The translations under genes were made by a program, and so were the position numbers. The notes under the pieces are model-generated. The model saw only the letters and a program-made list of their open reading frames with translations. It did not search any database and was not told where the DNA came from. Shown here piece after piece: positions 54,093 to 61,536 of a DNA stretch of 64,000 nt. Source of the DNA: Myxosarcina sp. GA_180221_E-2-1-MAG-40_15 (lineage in GTDB: Bacteria; Cyanobacteriota; Cyanobacteriia; Cyanobacteriales; Xenococcaceae); the NCBI GenBank assembly GCA_020692205.1, contig JAIMKV010000004.1:62001-126000 (forward strand), in the 5' to 3' direction. Every line of letters starts with the position of its first letter. Position 1 is the first letter of the stretch.

Positions 54093-55034
54093 TCATGCTA
54101 TTGGTTTCTTGAAAAACTGTACAGGAATAATCAAATATAATTCCCATAAAATTAGTTTAATTAATAATCTTTGAGTGTCAATCTTAAGTAACATCTGAGG
54201 AGCTAATAAAATAGACATTTTGAGATTTTGCTTAGCACTAACTAAACTTTTGCGATGATCGGCACTAATTTTTTTGCGATACAGATCTGCACAATATAAA
54301 TACAAAATACTGTAACTTCTATTTTTTTGCAGTTTTAGCTCATCTGTTGCTGTTTGATAAACTCGATCTAGGAACAATATGCTTTCTTGCTTCAGCTGTT
54401 CAATTTTAGTAGACATAGAATTGGCAGACTGACGATAATAAATCTGGAACTTAGGAACAACTGCAAAATCAAAATTTTTGGCTAACCGCAAATAAAAATC
54501 CCAATCTGCGGTGTAGGCAAGTTCAGGATTAAAACCTGTCACTAAGTCTAAGACATCGCGATGAATCAGAATATTTGAAGCATTGGTTAAAAAGTTGGTT
54601 TGGAGAAGTTGTTGATAAATATTCCCTCGGTAAGAATAACGAGTTCCTGAAAATAAAGCTTTTCCCTGTTCATCAATATACTTAGTCCAGCTGTAAACTA
54701 CTTTAGCTTCAGGATTTTGGTACAATGCTTCAACTTGGGATGCTAACTTATCAGTACTCCATAAGTCGTCTGCATCTAAAAAAGCAATAAATTCTCCTGT
54801 AGCATGAGAAATACCACGATTTCGCGCCGTAGCTACGCCTCCATTTTCATAAACAAACAGTTGAAGACGAGGTTCGACTATATTATTGACTACTGTGATA
54901 GTATTATCTTGTGAACCATCATCAATTACAATTATCTCATAGTCAGTAAAAGTTTGTTGCTGTACTGAAGTAATAGTTTCTTCTATCGTCTTTTCGGAGT
55001 TATAAGTCGGAATAATTATTGATACTTTGGACAT
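54093..55034 (-). CDS. Family 2 glycosyltransferase
   Basis: 313 residues of GT-A type. The N-terminal catalytic half shows VSIIIPTYNSEKTIEETITS, IIVIDDGSQDNT and the metal-binding DxD-like FLDADDLW, then TADWDFYLRLAKNF. The C-terminal region (about 225-313) is basic and lacks strong membrane helices except a short one near 290-305. The substrate is unknown. It opens the accessory-looking block at 54-60 kb, though on the opposite strand. Confidence 0.9.
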   Translation of the reverse strand: MSKVSIIIPTYNSEKTIEETITSVQQQTFTDYEIIVIDDGSQDNTITVVNNIVEPRLQLFVYENGGVATARNRGISHATGEFIAFLDADDLWSTDKLASQVEALYQNPEAKVVYSWTKYIDEQGKALFSGTRYSYRGNIYQQLLQTNFLTNASNILIHRDVLDLVTGFNPELAYTADWDFYLRLAKNFDFAVVPKFQIYYRQSANSMSTKIEQLKQESILFLDRVYQTATDELKLQKNRSYSILYLYCADLYRKKISADHRKSLVSAKQNLKMSILLAPQMLLKIDTQRLLIKLILWELYLIIPVQFFKKPIA

Positions 55035-55585: not shown

Positions 55586-56377
55586 ATGAACGAAAAAGAA
55601 ATTAAAACTGCATTTGACAGAGATGGCTTTTTGATATGTAAAGGACTTTTCTCTTCAGAAGAAATGCAGAGCTTACTTCAAGACATTAAAAATTCTCAAA
55701 GAAGATATGGACAAGATGATTTAACCAAGGGGTCGATGACCTTTAAAAGTAGTGTCTTTTATCATAGTCCAACAATTCAGCAATTTGTTAGTCAACAGAA
55801 AATCGTCGATTTGCTCAAAGTGTTGATTGGTCCAGATATTTGGGTGCGTTGGGATCAAGCCGTTGCCAAAGGTCCAAATTCCGATACCTTTCCTTGGCAT
55901 CAAGATAACAACTATAGTAAGTTAAAAGACCCCCACTATCAGTTTTGGGTAGCCTTAACCGAATCGAATGCGAACAATGGTGGTCTACTTCTGCAACCAG
56001 GTTCACATAAGCAGAATTTGCCTTATCGATATGATGGATATGAAGTTGTTTATGATGGAGTACCGTCAAACCCTACCTTAATTACAGCAGAACCTGGTGA
56101 TGTCGTAATTTTTTCGTCGTTTACACTCCATAGTACGACTCCCAATATTACTCAGAATACCAGATGGGCGTATGTGATTGAATATATGTCTCTTGACCAC
56201 TACGATCCTTATGTAGAGCCTCCTTACTTTGTAGTTGCTCGAAATGGTAAATCTAGCCCAGAGTTTGTTCATTCATATCGCGGCAAAAACAATCCAATAT
56301 CTCGTTTGAAATACTATATTTCTGACTTCAAACAACCTCAAAAAATACTGAGTAAATTAGCTCAAAGCAAGAGTTAG
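55586..56377 (+). CDS. PhyH-type Fe(II)/2-oxoglutarate dioxygenase
   Basis: 263 residues of the phytanoyl-CoA dioxygenase family. Iron ligands: His105 and Asp107 in FPWHQDNNY and His182 in FTLHSTTPN, with the 2-oxoglutarate-binding Arg following in NTRWAYVIEY. The N-terminus (FDRDGFLICKGLFSSEEMQS) is typical. Members hydroxylate or otherwise oxidise small molecules, often in natural-product or sugar pathways. It stands before the aminotransferase gene, separated by a palindromic terminator. Confidence 0.88.
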   Translation: MNEKEIKTAFDRDGFLICKGLFSSEEMQSLLQDIKNSQRRYGQDDLTKGSMTFKSSVFYHSPTIQQFVSQQKIVDLLKVLIGPDIWVRWDQAVAKGPNSDTFPWHQDNNYSKLKDPHYQFWVALTESNANNGGLLLQPGSHKQNLPYRYDGYEVVYDGVPSNPTLITAEPGDVVIFSSFTLHSTTPNITQNTRWAYVIEYMSLDHYDPYVEPPYFVVARNGKSSPEFVHSYRGKNNPISRLKYYISDFKQPQKILSKLAQSKS

Positions 56378-56540: not shown

Positions 56541-56580
56541 TTTTGAATTTAACCTACGAATAATTCTTTTGAATATTGCT

Positions 56581-57765
56581 ATGCAGACTATTATCCACGA
56601 TCAATTTCCGATTCGTTCTCCAAAAGATTTCTTAGTCTTCGGCTCACCTCCGATTGAAATGGATGAGATTGAAGAAGTTGTTGCTAGTATGACATCTGGT
56701 TGGCTAGGGACAGGGCCGAAAGTAGCAAAATTTGAAGAAGATTTTAAAAGCTATAAAGAAGCAGATTATGCGGTTGCAGTTAATTCTTGTACGGCGGCAA
56801 TACATTTAGGTATTTTAGCGACGGGGATTAAGCCTGGGGATGAGGTCATTACTACTCCCTTGACCTTCTGCGCTACAGTAAATGCCATTATCCACGCTGG
56901 AGCAACTCCTGTATTAGCAGATGTCAACCCAGTGACGATGAACATCGACCCTGAAAGAGTAGCAGCAAAGATAACCGACAAAACAAAAGTTATTCTTCCA
57001 GTTCATTTCGCTGGTCGTCCTTGCGATATGGATGCTCTTTCTGCCTTGGTAGTAGACCACGATCTCAAAATGATTGAAGATTGCGCTCATGCGATTGAGA
57101 CAGAATATAAAGGTCGTAAAGCTGGGACGTTTGGTGACTTTGGCTCTTTTAGTTTTTATGTAACTAAAAATATTACCACTGGGGAAGGGGGAATGATTCT
57201 GGCTCGCCAACAATCTGCGGCGGCTCGGATTAAAACACTAGCACTACATGGAATGAGTAAAGATGCCTGGAAACGTTTTGGTGACGATGGCTATAAACAT
57301 TATTATGTAGAAGAGTGTGGCTACAAATATAACATGATGGATCTCCAAGCTGCGATCGGCATTCATCAGCTAGCGAGAGTAGAAACATATTGGCGTAAAA
57401 GACAAGCAATATGGCAACGATATTTGGAAGCTTTTAGTGATTTACCTATAGGTTTACCTGCCAGCCCTGAAGCAAATACTAGGCATGGTTATCATTTGTT
57501 TACTATTCTGGTGGATGAAGAAAAAGCAGGAATTAGTCGCGACAATTTTCTAAATGCAATGACGGCTCACAATATCGGCGTGGGTGTACATTATTTGAGT
57601 ATTCCCGAACATCCTTATTATCAAAAAACCTTTGGTTGGAAACCAGAAGATTATCCCCAGGCGATGCGGATAGGAAGACAAACGGTCAGTTTGCCATTAT
57701 CGCCAAAGTTAACAGATAAAGATGTTGAAGATGTAATTTTAGCGGTTAAACAAATCTTTAAGTGA
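56581..57765 (+). CDS. DegT/DnrJ/EryC1-type sugar aminotransferase
   Basis: A PLP-dependent aminotransferase that installs an amino group on nucleotide keto-sugars. From the ATG at 56581 it has 394 residues; a TTG at 56569 would add four. Family motifs: FLVFGSPPIEMDEIEEV, TGPKVAKFEEDF, VNSCTAAIHLGILA, EVITTPLTF, IEDCAHAI and the PLP Lys196 in FSFYVTKNITTGEGGM. The C-terminus (GVGVHYLSIPEHPYY) is also standard. It points to an aminodeoxysugar on a surface glycan or metabolite. Confidence 0.93.
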   Translation: MQTIIHDQFPIRSPKDFLVFGSPPIEMDEIEEVVASMTSGWLGTGPKVAKFEEDFKSYKEADYAVAVNSCTAAIHLGILATGIKPGDEVITTPLTFCATVNAIIHAGATPVLADVNPVTMNIDPERVAAKITDKTKVILPVHFAGRPCDMDALSALVVDHDLKMIEDCAHAIETEYKGRKAGTFGDFGSFSFYVTKNITTGEGGMILARQQSAAARIKTLALHGMSKDAWKRFGDDGYKHYYVEECGYKYNMMDLQAAIGIHQLARVETYWRKRQAIWQRYLEAFSDLPIGLPASPEANTRHGYHLFTILVDEEKAGISRDNFLNAMTAHNIGVGVHYLSIPEHPYYQKTFGWKPEDYPQAMRIGRQTVSLPLSPKLTDKDVEDVILAVKQIFK

Positions 57766-57993: not shown

Positions 57994-59223
57994 ATGAAAC
58001 TAGAAAATCTGCGAACTGAGACTAGAGAAAACCGAGTTAGAGTAGTTGTTACCGTAATTTGGGAAAATTGCGATCGCCCTACTCAAGATGTATATTTTGA
58101 AACTACGACTGAATTTAGTCAAGACCTCTACGCTAACCCCAACGCTTTTCTCTTAGCTTGCGCTCTTCCTGCAATGCGCTATGGAGAAACAAGAATTGCG
58201 CTGGATGCTCCTATCTGTCCAGAAATCAGAGATGGCTTGATTAATGCCATGAAATGTTTAATTGCTTGGTATGGGGGCGATCGCCAGATCATTCCTATTG
58301 AAGCTCCAATTCAGTCAGAAGCTTTATTTGCCGAGAAATCCCCCAGAAGTGGTTGTTTATTTTCTGGCGGCATTGATTCTTTAGCAATGTTGCGAGATAA
58401 CCATCTTAATTTTGCTCCTGGACATCCTCGTTACATTCAAGATGGCATCTTAGTTTATGGACTTCTTCAGGGAGAAAATGAGTTCGATCCTCAATTCCAA
58501 AATGTGATCGATGCTGCAAGCAAAATGGCAACCGATGCGGGAATTAATTTAATTCCAGTCAATACTAATGCTTATGCTCATTTAACCGATTTAGACCGCG
58601 ACTTTAGCTTTTGGCGATATGAATATCATGGCTCTCTCTTGTCAGCGATCGCTCATGCTTTGGCACCTCGTTTTACAGTTGCGTCAATCGCTTCTACCTA
58701 CGATCTGGCTCATCTAGAACCTTGGGGTTCTCATCCCTTAATCGATCCTTTGTACAGTAATATTAACTTGCAGATTCGTCACGAAAATGCTGCTCTATCT
58801 CGATTAGAAAAAACTCAATTGGTTGGCGAATGGGATGTAGCGGTACAGCAACTACGAGTTTGTAACCAAAAAGACAGCTATAGCACAGGCAATTATAACT
58901 GCGGTAAATGTGAAAAATGTGTCCGAACTATGACCGCATTGTTATCGCTAAATTTATTAGACCGAGCGACTACTTTTGTCGAAAAAAATGTTACTAAGGA
59001 AATGTTAATCAATACCTGTTACCTGAGTGACTCTTATGAAGTTAATTGTTATCGAGAACTAATTGAACCTCTTGCTAAACTAAGTCGCGATGATCTCATA
59101 GCTGGAATTGAACAAATTATTGCTCGCTATTACGAAAAAGACTTAAAAGGATTAATTAAGCGTTTGGATCGCACTTTATTTAAAGGTAATATTCTCAAAC
59201 TAACTCAAAGTCGTATGCTTTAG
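57994..59223 (+). CDS. QueC-like PP-loop ATPase with a four-cysteine site
   Basis: 409 residues. The N-terminal domain (about 1-110) is not recognised. Residues 123-129, FSGGIDS, are the PP-loop of the N-type ATP pyrophosphatases, which adenylate a carbonyl and transfer nitrogen or sulfur to it. Cys290, Cys303, Cys306 and Cys309 (CGKCEKCVRT) resemble the zinc site of QueC, the preQ0 synthase, but overall length and the N-terminal domain differ and no que genes are nearby. Position between a DegT aminotransferase and an acyltransferase suggests amide, nitrile or thio chemistry on a sugar or metabolite; this is inference. It starts at the ATG at 57994 after GAAAGGCAG. Confidence 0.75.
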   Translation: MKLENLRTETRENRVRVVVTVIWENCDRPTQDVYFETTTEFSQDLYANPNAFLLACALPAMRYGETRIALDAPICPEIRDGLINAMKCLIAWYGGDRQIIPIEAPIQSEALFAEKSPRSGCLFSGGIDSLAMLRDNHLNFAPGHPRYIQDGILVYGLLQGENEFDPQFQNVIDAASKMATDAGINLIPVNTNAYAHLTDLDRDFSFWRYEYHGSLLSAIAHALAPRFTVASIASTYDLAHLEPWGSHPLIDPLYSNINLQIRHENAALSRLEKTQLVGEWDVAVQQLRVCNQKDSYSTGNYNCGKCEKCVRTMTALLSLNLLDRATTFVEKNVTKEMLINTCYLSDSYEVNCYRELIEPLAKLSRDDLIAGIEQIIARYYEKDLKGLIKRLDRTLFKGNILKLTQSRML

Positions 59224-59330: not shown

Positions 59331-60092
59331 ATGAATAGTCTCCAAAAAAATCAATCATCGTTGAGTCAATCAGAGTGGAAAACTTCCATCTTGACAACTT
59401 TCTTAGGCTGGATTCCACTATTACCAGGACTAGGATTGAGATATTTGTTTTATCCTTTAATTTTTAAACAAATGGGTAGTTCTGTCCGAATTTATCCTGA
59501 TGTGAAGTTAAAAGATGGTCAAAATATAGCAATCGGATTTGGAGTTGTTCTGCATCGAGGAGTAGAAATTGATATTAATGCAGGTAATGAACTAAAAATT
59601 GGCGATCGCGTTAATCTTAGTCGAGATGTTGGTATTAGTTGTACCGAGCAGAAAAGCAAGATTGAGTTGGATAATGTAGTTAGTTTAGACCGAGGTGTCG
59701 AACTCAGGACTCATGGTGGCGGTCAGACATACATTGGCGATCGCACTTATATTGGTCCTTATACTTGCATTTCAGGATATGGAAAAATCACCATTGGTAA
59801 AGATTGTTTGATCGCCTCTCATTGCTCTATTTATGCCCATAACTATAAATTTTCTGACCCGAACAAAACGATTAAAGAACAAGGTTTTATCAGCAAAGGT
59901 ATTACCATCGAAGATGATTGCTGGCTAGGTAGTGGTGTTAAGGTAGTTGATGGAGTGACTATTGGTCAGGGTAGCGTCATTGGCGCAGGTGCAGTAGTAA
60001 CGAAAAACATACCTCCTTACTCGATTGCCGTGGGTGTACCAGCTAAAGTAGTTTCTACCCGAGTCAATAAGGCAGTGTTGCAACAACTTTGA
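59331..60092 (+). CDS. Left-handed beta-helix (hexapeptide) acyltransferase
   Basis: 253 residues of the WbbJ/NodL-like O- or N-acetyltransferase group. The N-terminal part (about 20-65) has a hydrophobic stretch (ILTTFLGWIPLLPGLGLRYL), followed by hexapeptide repeats (IAIGFGVVLHRGVEIDINAG, IGPYTCISGYGKITIGKDCL) with the HNY loop (YAHNYKF) and the closing coils GSGVKVVDGVTIGQGSVIGA, AVVTKNIPPYSIAVGVPAKV. It most likely acetylates a sugar; last gene of the + strand series. Confidence 0.92.
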   Translation: MNSLQKNQSSLSQSEWKTSILTTFLGWIPLLPGLGLRYLFYPLIFKQMGSSVRIYPDVKLKDGQNIAIGFGVVLHRGVEIDINAGNELKIGDRVNLSRDVGISCTEQKSKIELDNVVSLDRGVELRTHGGGQTYIGDRTYIGPYTCISGYGKITIGKDCLIASHCSIYAHNYKFSDPNKTIKEQGFISKGITIEDDCWLGSGVKVVDGVTIGQGSVIGAGAVVTKNIPPYSIAVGVPAKVVSTRVNKAVLQQL

Positions 60093-60699: not shown

Positions 60700-61536
60700 T
60701 TAGTATTGATGAGCTTTGCGTTGAGTTTGTACTTGCCTTAGCCGATCCAAGCACTTTGAAATAGTAATAGTTCCATCATCGTGGGTAGTCAATAGTTTTT
60801 TATCGCAAACTCCGTTTGGAGAACCCTTGGAATGATTTTTATATTGATGTAAGATTTTTGGTGAAATTCGCTGCTTCAATTCATTGGAGACGATAATTAG
60901 TTCGGGTCTACAGTAATCAAACACTTCTGGACAATAGCTTTCCTCTCGTCCATGGTTAGCAGCGACAAACATATTGACCTTGCGAAGATGATGGCAAAAA
61001 TCATCATTCTTGAGTAGTGTTCGCCAACCCTCTGTTTCCAGATCGCTGGGGAAAATAATTTTAATATCTTCGTAGGATACAAACGTTACCAGACTAAGAT
61101 TGTGAGCATCTTGAAAGTCTGGATAATTATTCCAGAAAAAGGAGAAATCGATCCCATGAATTTTCATTGTCTGGCTAACTTTGGAACACCGTGAATTTCG
61201 GTCTGTTGTCAGCACATTGCTAAACCTTTGATTTGCCAGATCTAATTCATGAAATTGGTCGGCAGCAAGCGAGGGATTAGCTACTAAGAAATTAACGGCT
61301 AAGCCATCTATTAAAGTTTGTTTGAGAAAATCAGACAGACCTGCTAAATGTTCTTCACCATAAGCTGGAACGATCACACAATCCAGGGAGGTACAGAGTT
61401 CTTGCAACAGGTATTGCGAAGGATTGAATCCACTGCGAACACTGTAACTAAAATCGATCAGAATTGTATGATGATCACCTGTGCTAACAGCAGCACAAAA
61501 CCCACTATCGACGTTGAAAATTTTAATGTCTAGCAT
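60700..61536 (-). CDS. ComEC/Rec2-like MBL-fold protein with altered metal motif
   Basis: 278 residues of the stand-alone ComEC-type metallo-beta-lactamase domain. Landmarks: MLDIKIFNVDSGFCAAVSTG, the loop VIVPAYGEEHLAGLSDFLKQ, SLVTFVSYEDIKIIFPSDLE and VNMFVAANHGREESYCPEVF followed by RPELIIVSN. The usual TH(P/S)DxDH motif reads PAYGEEH, so only the last His and possibly a Glu are kept, and the normal GD of the fourth motif reads SD. Catalysis of the common kind is doubtful. It overlaps the preceding small gene by 14 bases, so the two are translated together. Confidence 0.8.
   Translation of the reverse strand: MLDIKIFNVDSGFCAAVSTGDHHTILIDFSYSVRSGFNPSQYLLQELCTSLDCVIVPAYGEEHLAGLSDFLKQTLIDGLAVNFLVANPSLAADQFHELDLANQRFSNVLTTDRNSRCSKVSQTMKIHGIDFSFFWNNYPDFQDAHNLSLVTFVSYEDIKIIFPSDLETEGWRTLLKNDDFCHHLRKVNMFVAANHGREESYCPEVFDYCRPELIIVSNELKQRISPKILHQYKNHSKGSPNGVCDKKLLTTHDDGTITISKCLDRLRQVQTQRKAHQY

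Follow-up and report, generated by a model that had tools for sequence, protein, structure and literature searches.

The window analysed here is a stretch of 64,000 nucleotides from contig C67 of a Myxosarcina genome of 4.87 Mb. It contains a gene for a QueC-like N-type ATP pyrophosphatase with sugar-related genes on both sides (Table 1). The neighbours named in an initial annotation of the locus, i.e. a DegT aminotransferase, an acyltransferase, a PhyH oxygenase and a GT2 glycosyltransferase, were all recovered as Pfam matches (PF01041, PF00132, PF05721 and PF00535). The DegT protein scores 353 bits against the PseC model, which is below the cut-off of 423.5. Gaps of 228 and 107 bp on the two sides of the enzyme gene are no proof of an operon, and scans for promoters and terminators gave results below chance level. 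A 278 aa ORF at window positions 60700-61536 on the minus strand had no Pfam match at E 0.01.

Table 1. Features of the enzyme gene and its neighbours in the window.
Feature	Position	Strand	Evidence
QueC-like N-type ATP pyrophosphatase family gene	57994..59223	+	ORF, 409 aa; family profile E 4.9e-149 (match in the window genome, with a profile that includes the window sequence itself); model pLDDT 88
Family-specific N-terminal region, residues 1-115: three strands, then helix-strand-helix-strand	57994..58338	+	DSSP on model
PP-loop FSGGIDS, residues 123-129	58360..58380	+	sequence; G126 100%, D128 99% of 69 members
N192, family-conserved	58567..58569	+	94% of 69 members
GSHP motif, residues 245-248	58726..58737	+	G245 77%, P248 71% of 69 members
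RxxK motif, R270 and K273	58801..58812	+	96% and 94% of 69 members
C290-x12-C303-x2-C306-x2-C309, probable zinc site	58861..58920	+	four Cys and N302 invariant (69 members); superimposed on the cysteine site of QueC in the profile alignment
C-terminal helical extension, residues 335-408	58996..59217	+	DSSP on model
DegT/DnrJ/EryC1/StrS aminotransferase (PF01041), 228 bp upstream of the enzyme gene	56569..57765	+	nearest PseC
Hexapeptide acyltransferase, 107 bp downstream of the enzyme gene	59331..60092	+	PF00132
PhyH-type 2OG-Fe(II) oxygenase; putative link to the enzyme	55586..56377	+	PF05721
GT2 glycosyltransferase, divergent; putative link to the enzyme	54093..55034	-	PF10111, PF00535

Searches with the window protein gave no Pfam or NCBIfam match up to E 0.01, no match in PADLOC and no relative in a direct sequence search of the PDB. 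Its closest homologues are found in cyanobacteria of the Pleurocapsales/Xenococcaceae, and a paralogue with 68% identity is encoded on another contig of the window genome. Comparison of the window gene with close relatives resulted in pN of ~0.18-0.23 and pS of ~0.65-0.72. Since the divergence is mostly synonymous, the gene is under selection.

For a comparison with known enzymes, an alignment of 69 family members was used; they come from Cyanobacteria, Pseudomonadota, Bacillota and haloarchaea. In hhalign, the resulting profile matched QueC along its core and cysteine site with a probability of 96.7% (E 3.4e-10), whereas an unrelated negative control gave 0.08%. Like QueC (PF06508, 7-cyano-7-deazaguanine synthase), the window protein combines a PP-loop core with a Cys4 site, both aligned at the profile level, and a conserved Lys precedes the cysteine site in both. 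However, it is ~190 residues longer, and its cysteine site reads C-x12-CGKCEKCVRT, so that the first spacing is x12 instead of x8 as in the canonical C(x)8CxxCxxC. Canonical QueC is further defined by the motifs YxQxHxxE, VPxRN and YPDC (PMC13329287). None of these three substrate-pocket motifs is present in the window protein sequence, while the genome's own QueC carries them as YGQRHQKE, VPGRN and YPDC. This true QueC is located on contig C51 and scores 252 bits against PF06508, compared to 11.2 bits for the window protein at a Pfam cut-off of 22. The QueD-type PTPS genes are found on contig C17. For QueC and QueD, this agrees with the earlier remark that queuosine genes are missing from the vicinity.

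The initial annotation had set an ordinary preQ0 synthase beforehand as the case that would speak against a new enzyme. The PP-loop and the cysteine site do look QueC-like, but we rejected this reading because of the Pfam score below the cut-off, the absent motifs and the separate true QueC in the genome; it can be virtually dismissed. Judged by its sequence, the window protein is clearly homologous to QueC and not QueC itself. Two pseudomonadotal carriers (G521 and G612, assemblies of unstated completeness) matched neither full-length QueC nor PTPS/QueD; therefore, the family seems to be independent of 7-deazaguanine. The genomic context of the family likewise differs from that of QueC, with polysaccharide genes in place of queD/queE. 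Owing to the score below the PF06508 cut-off, the family was probably outside the 2026 survey of PF06508 (PMC13329287). Such QueC-like proteins should not be labelled queuosine genes.

The structure prediction and comparison suggested in the initial annotation yielded a confident full-length AlphaFold2 model, built on 17 sequences, with a mean pLDDT of 88.2 and a pTM of 0.87. Its top-ranked fold matches are PP-loop enzymes only. MnmA and NcsA lead the PDB matches, which also include asparagine synthetase, TilS and GMP synthetase; these matches are weak, with none below E 0.001. Among viral proteins, QueC models came first (E 2e-5, probability 1.00). Profile searches of the PDB mainly matched the PP-loop segment, with GMP synthase subunit B as the best match and QatC (9vlk) at E 0.1-0.35. 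The window protein is thus a member of the N-type PP-loop superfamily with an SGGxDS loop on a Rossmann-like core, and the profile alignment agrees with the QueC-like cysteine site ascribed to it.

In the model, the N-terminal ~115 residues stand before the PP-loop core. This region had been described as an unrecognised domain. Modelled by itself it gave a weak model (pTM 0.48), for which solved structures returned designed proteins and RNase H/hexokinase-like folds, none of them significant; QatC was not among the listed matches of this weak model. As a correction to that description, the domain is not peculiar to the window protein. All gathered family members carry the extra region, and it is therefore a mark of the family and not of the window gene alone.

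The FSGGIDS loop and the four cysteines on which the initial annotation was based are present in the sequence. G126, C290, N302, C303, C306 and C309 are invariant in the 69 aligned members, and D128, G156 and K308 are conserved at 99%; the exact SGG is absent in some members. Together with the low pN relative to pS, this conservation shows that the signal did not arise by chance. The features of the family, i.e. the extra N-terminal region, SGGxD, N192, RxxK and C...NCGxCxKC, are all found in the window protein. Among Cyanobacteria, 16 of the 386 genomes (12 of the 142 genera) have members; for Pseudomonadota the figure is 10 of 399 genomes, and for the taxonomic family to which the window belongs it is 14 of 27. 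Plasmid-borne members, annotated as hypothetical proteins, were found in Nostoc, Gloeothece, Azospirillum, Gemmobacter, Paracoccus, Priestia, Pseudobutyrivibrio and several haloarchaea. No dedicated family model was found in Pfam, NCBIfam or PADLOC. Literature searches, with most subscription papers outside their scope, yielded no account of the family, nor of the association with pyruvyl transferases discussed below, in keeping with the claim of an undescribed QueC-like enzyme. It is well supported that the proteins form a new, unnamed family inside a known superfamily and belong neither to QueC nor to the N-acetyl sugar amidotransferases (NASAT). Their chemistry is presumably QueC/NASAT-like.

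GenBank phage records contained no homologue of the window protein. Twelve IMG/VR contigs filed as viral (L039-L050) carry family members, and some of these may be misfiled host DNA. PHROG 1550, a viral family of 418 positions named 'QueC-like queuosine biosynthesis', is matched by 21 of 40 family members (best E 2.8e-6); for the window protein the match is at E 0.002 and confined to the cysteine region. Broken copies with a frameshift or in-frame stop were observed at L008:8001-9241, L051:626-1258 and G793:C224:16308-17518; hence, the gene is under loss in some cyanobacteria. Two candidate relationships were discarded. DUF6395 gave weak matches in 6 of 13 and 6 of 40 members and no relatives in 249 genomes of Pseudomonadota. 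The match to a 'nitrile synthetase' (9lei/9leh) covers a P-loop stretch only, and that protein appears to be argininosuccinate-synthetase-like (reference in PMC13060819).

Gene neighbourhoods were compared at 75 loci with flanks, and pyruvyl transferases were searched with an iterated profile. A polysaccharide pyruvyl transferase (PF04230) is encoded within three genes at 18 of the 75 loci, and GT2 glycosyltransferases at 17. Directly upstream of the QueC-like gene (-1), the pyruvyl transferase is present at 11 of 73 loci (in ten cases with both genes on one strand), as opposed to 1 of 471 slots at a distance of at least 4 (Fisher p 1.4e-9, an approximate value since near-duplicate loci such as two Gloeothece plasmids are included). 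This pairing occurs at a minority of loci, but it is the strongest family-wide partnership, and it appears in separate clades of the tree, including L111, the sister lineage of the window's clade. Export and polymerisation genes of the Wzx, Wzc and Wzy type are found in several clusters. Within the window's clade, the gene directly follows Wzx in a polysaccharide cluster on a Nostoc plasmid (L097) and in genome G048, lies beside a Wzx-PF01663-GT2-Wzc cluster in G792 and ends a GT2-GT2-PF01663-...-FemAB run in G791. Many other copies in Xenococcaceae are lone genes. Taken together, a role of the family in polysaccharide chemistry is fairly well supported.

The initial annotation is thus correct in its outline, but its sugar/metabolite gene block is borne out only in part. 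Polysaccharide context applies to the family as a whole, but the DegT/acyltransferase/PhyH block itself is weakly conserved. It was not found around the Xenococcaceae orthologues examined, many of which are lone genes, or around the in-genome paralogue. The proposed neighbourhood analysis of homologues revealed links to pyruvyl transferase, GT2 and Wzx; no pyruvyl transferase lies beside the window gene. DegT at -1 with a hexapeptide acyltransferase as the next gene on the other side recurs at two loci only, both in a distant alphaproteobacterium, the Hyphomicrobiaceae MAG G386, where the DegT gene overlaps the enzyme gene and the acyltransferase is on the opposite strand. With three loci in two genomes, this gene order is suggestive but not strong.

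In N-type PP-loop enzymes a carbonyl oxygen is adenylated and a nucleophile then displaces AMP, a mechanism that is established in QueC as well as in GMP synthetase and asparagine synthetase. Our computations show the family identity, the homology to QueC, the conserved motifs and the family-wide linkage to polysaccharide genes. We propose, with about even confidence, that the members of this unnamed cross-domain QueC-like family catalyse ATP-dependent amide or amidine formation on a surface-polysaccharide precursor. ATP would be bound at the SGGxDS loop. For the subsequent catalysis we infer that a carboxylate or N-acyl oxygen of the precursor may be adenylated and that ammonia or an amine may displace AMP, so that the glycan would end up carrying an amide or amidine. 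A structural zinc, bound by the four cysteines, would sit beside the active site as it does in QueC, and the terminal regions missing from QueC at either end may form the pocket for the sugar or act as its lid. In the window genome, the likeliest substrate would be an amino-sugar made by the adjacent PseC-like DegT protein and acylated by the hexapeptide acyltransferase. Some observations count against this explanation. The DegT and acyltransferase neighbours of the window gene are not kept in close relatives, and many orthologues as well as the paralogue are lone genes; therefore, a dedicated pathway is not needed. A glutaminase partner was not seen. The lack of a pyruvyl transferase beside the window gene, the small share of loci with that pairing, the intergenic gaps and the members that deviate from SGG weigh against it as well.

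Surface sugars are known to receive acetamidino groups through WbpG/WbuX (PMC10607449) and to be converted to uronamides by the PP-loop enzymes WbpS/WbqG (PMC7468200). WbpG/WbuX (NASAT, TIGR03573) resembles the window protein in its PP-loop, four cysteines and occurrence in polysaccharide clusters, and it provides a model for the chemistry. In contrast to the C-x12-C site of the window protein, however, its cysteines are arranged as CxxC...[GN]xCxxC. In hhalign, WbuX/WbpG reached a probability of 3.8% with the family profile, and TIGR03573 was not matched by the window protein. WbpS/WbqG belongs to the glutamine-dependent asparagine-synthase family, to which the window protein has no match. 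If amidation of surface glycans by the QueC-like family is correct, it would be another PP-loop solution alongside WbpS and WbpG, and the pairing with the pyruvyl transferase would provide a substrate hypothesis for both enzymes. A bolder version, which we regard as not very likely, is that both enzymes form a module. The pyruvyl transferase would install a carboxylate-bearing group, e.g. a pyruvate ketal, which the QueC-like enzyme would then adenylate and amidate or aminoacylate, resulting in a hitherto undescribed glycan modification; the window lineage would have re-used the enzyme for the amino-sugar made by DegT.

Three other functions were considered. The enzyme could introduce a nitrile or amide group into a small secondary metabolite, in which case the sugar genes would be there for a natural product that is glycosylated. 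QueC itself is nitrile-forming, the product of a lone gene could have a small molecule as its substrate, and the members on Gloeothece plasmids adjoin NRPS genes. However, NRPS genes are present within three genes at just 3 of the 75 loci, and the Wzx, Wzc and Wzy-type genes extend to the window clade, which makes this function unlikely. The family could also act as a thio-transferase, adenylating a carbonyl and inserting sulfur as in MnmA, NcsA and LarE. MnmA and NcsA do lead the weak PDB fold matches, but the sole invariant cysteines are the QueC-like four, without a conserved catalytic pair as in MnmA, and sulfur-carrier genes were not recognised nearby. We hold this assignment to be very unlikely.

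Protein modification in defence or regulation would imply that a carboxylate, e.g. 7-carboxy-7-deazaguanine, is activated and joined to a protein N-terminus, as shown for Cap9 and proposed for QatC. QatC from qatABCD defence systems is likewise a QueC relative of ~400 aa that is extended at both termini (PMC12424860, PMC13329287); its N-terminal extension comprises four parallel strands and three helices (PMC12424860). Compared by eye, an HP pair and a Lys ahead of the cysteine site look alike in QatC and the window protein, and the lone genes in Pleurocapsales would fit a self-contained role. On the other hand, the QatC motifs C(x)19CGxCxxRR, with its characteristic spacing, and D(x)4R(x)7WxR are absent from the window protein, and QatC is not among the top 50 PDB fold matches of its model. 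The PADLOC search was negative, and beside the window gene, in place of qatA, qatB or qatD, there are the DegT, acyltransferase, PhyH and GT2 genes. Cap9 (type IV CBASS) has ~185 aa and a CD-NTase beside it, whereas no such neighbour was recognised for the window protein with its 409 aa. Carriers with neither a QueC nor a PTPS match (G521 and G612) and the polysaccharide context also argue against this function, and we consider it quite improbable.

On contig C6 of the window genome, a polysaccharide cluster (L192:8163-14176) encodes a NeuB with a fused TIM barrel, a cytidylyltransferase and a protein in which a methyltransferase is joined to a pyruvyl transferase; the search for homologues of the window DegT protein gave none on this contig. 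NeuB and the cytidylyltransferase prove nothing, but they would fit a nonulosonic acid as target. Adjacent pairs of family genes are frequent (L017, L104, L113, L114, L051 in tandem and L107 divergent), which suggests that two specificities are used jointly. At two loci from cyanobacteria of different families, an HSP90-type gene lies directly 3' of the QueC-like gene (L053:10820-12838 and L054:7208-9199). At the former locus, the gene for an asparagine-synthase-like PF00733 protein, a second PP-loop enzyme in the run, separates the QueC-like gene from that of the pyruvyl transferase (L053:7681-9486). FemAB/GNAT-like (PF13480) and ATP-grasp (PF14397, PF02222) genes adjoin the QueC-like gene at L107, L112, L096 and L150, hinting at multiple amide-forming enzymes in such clusters.
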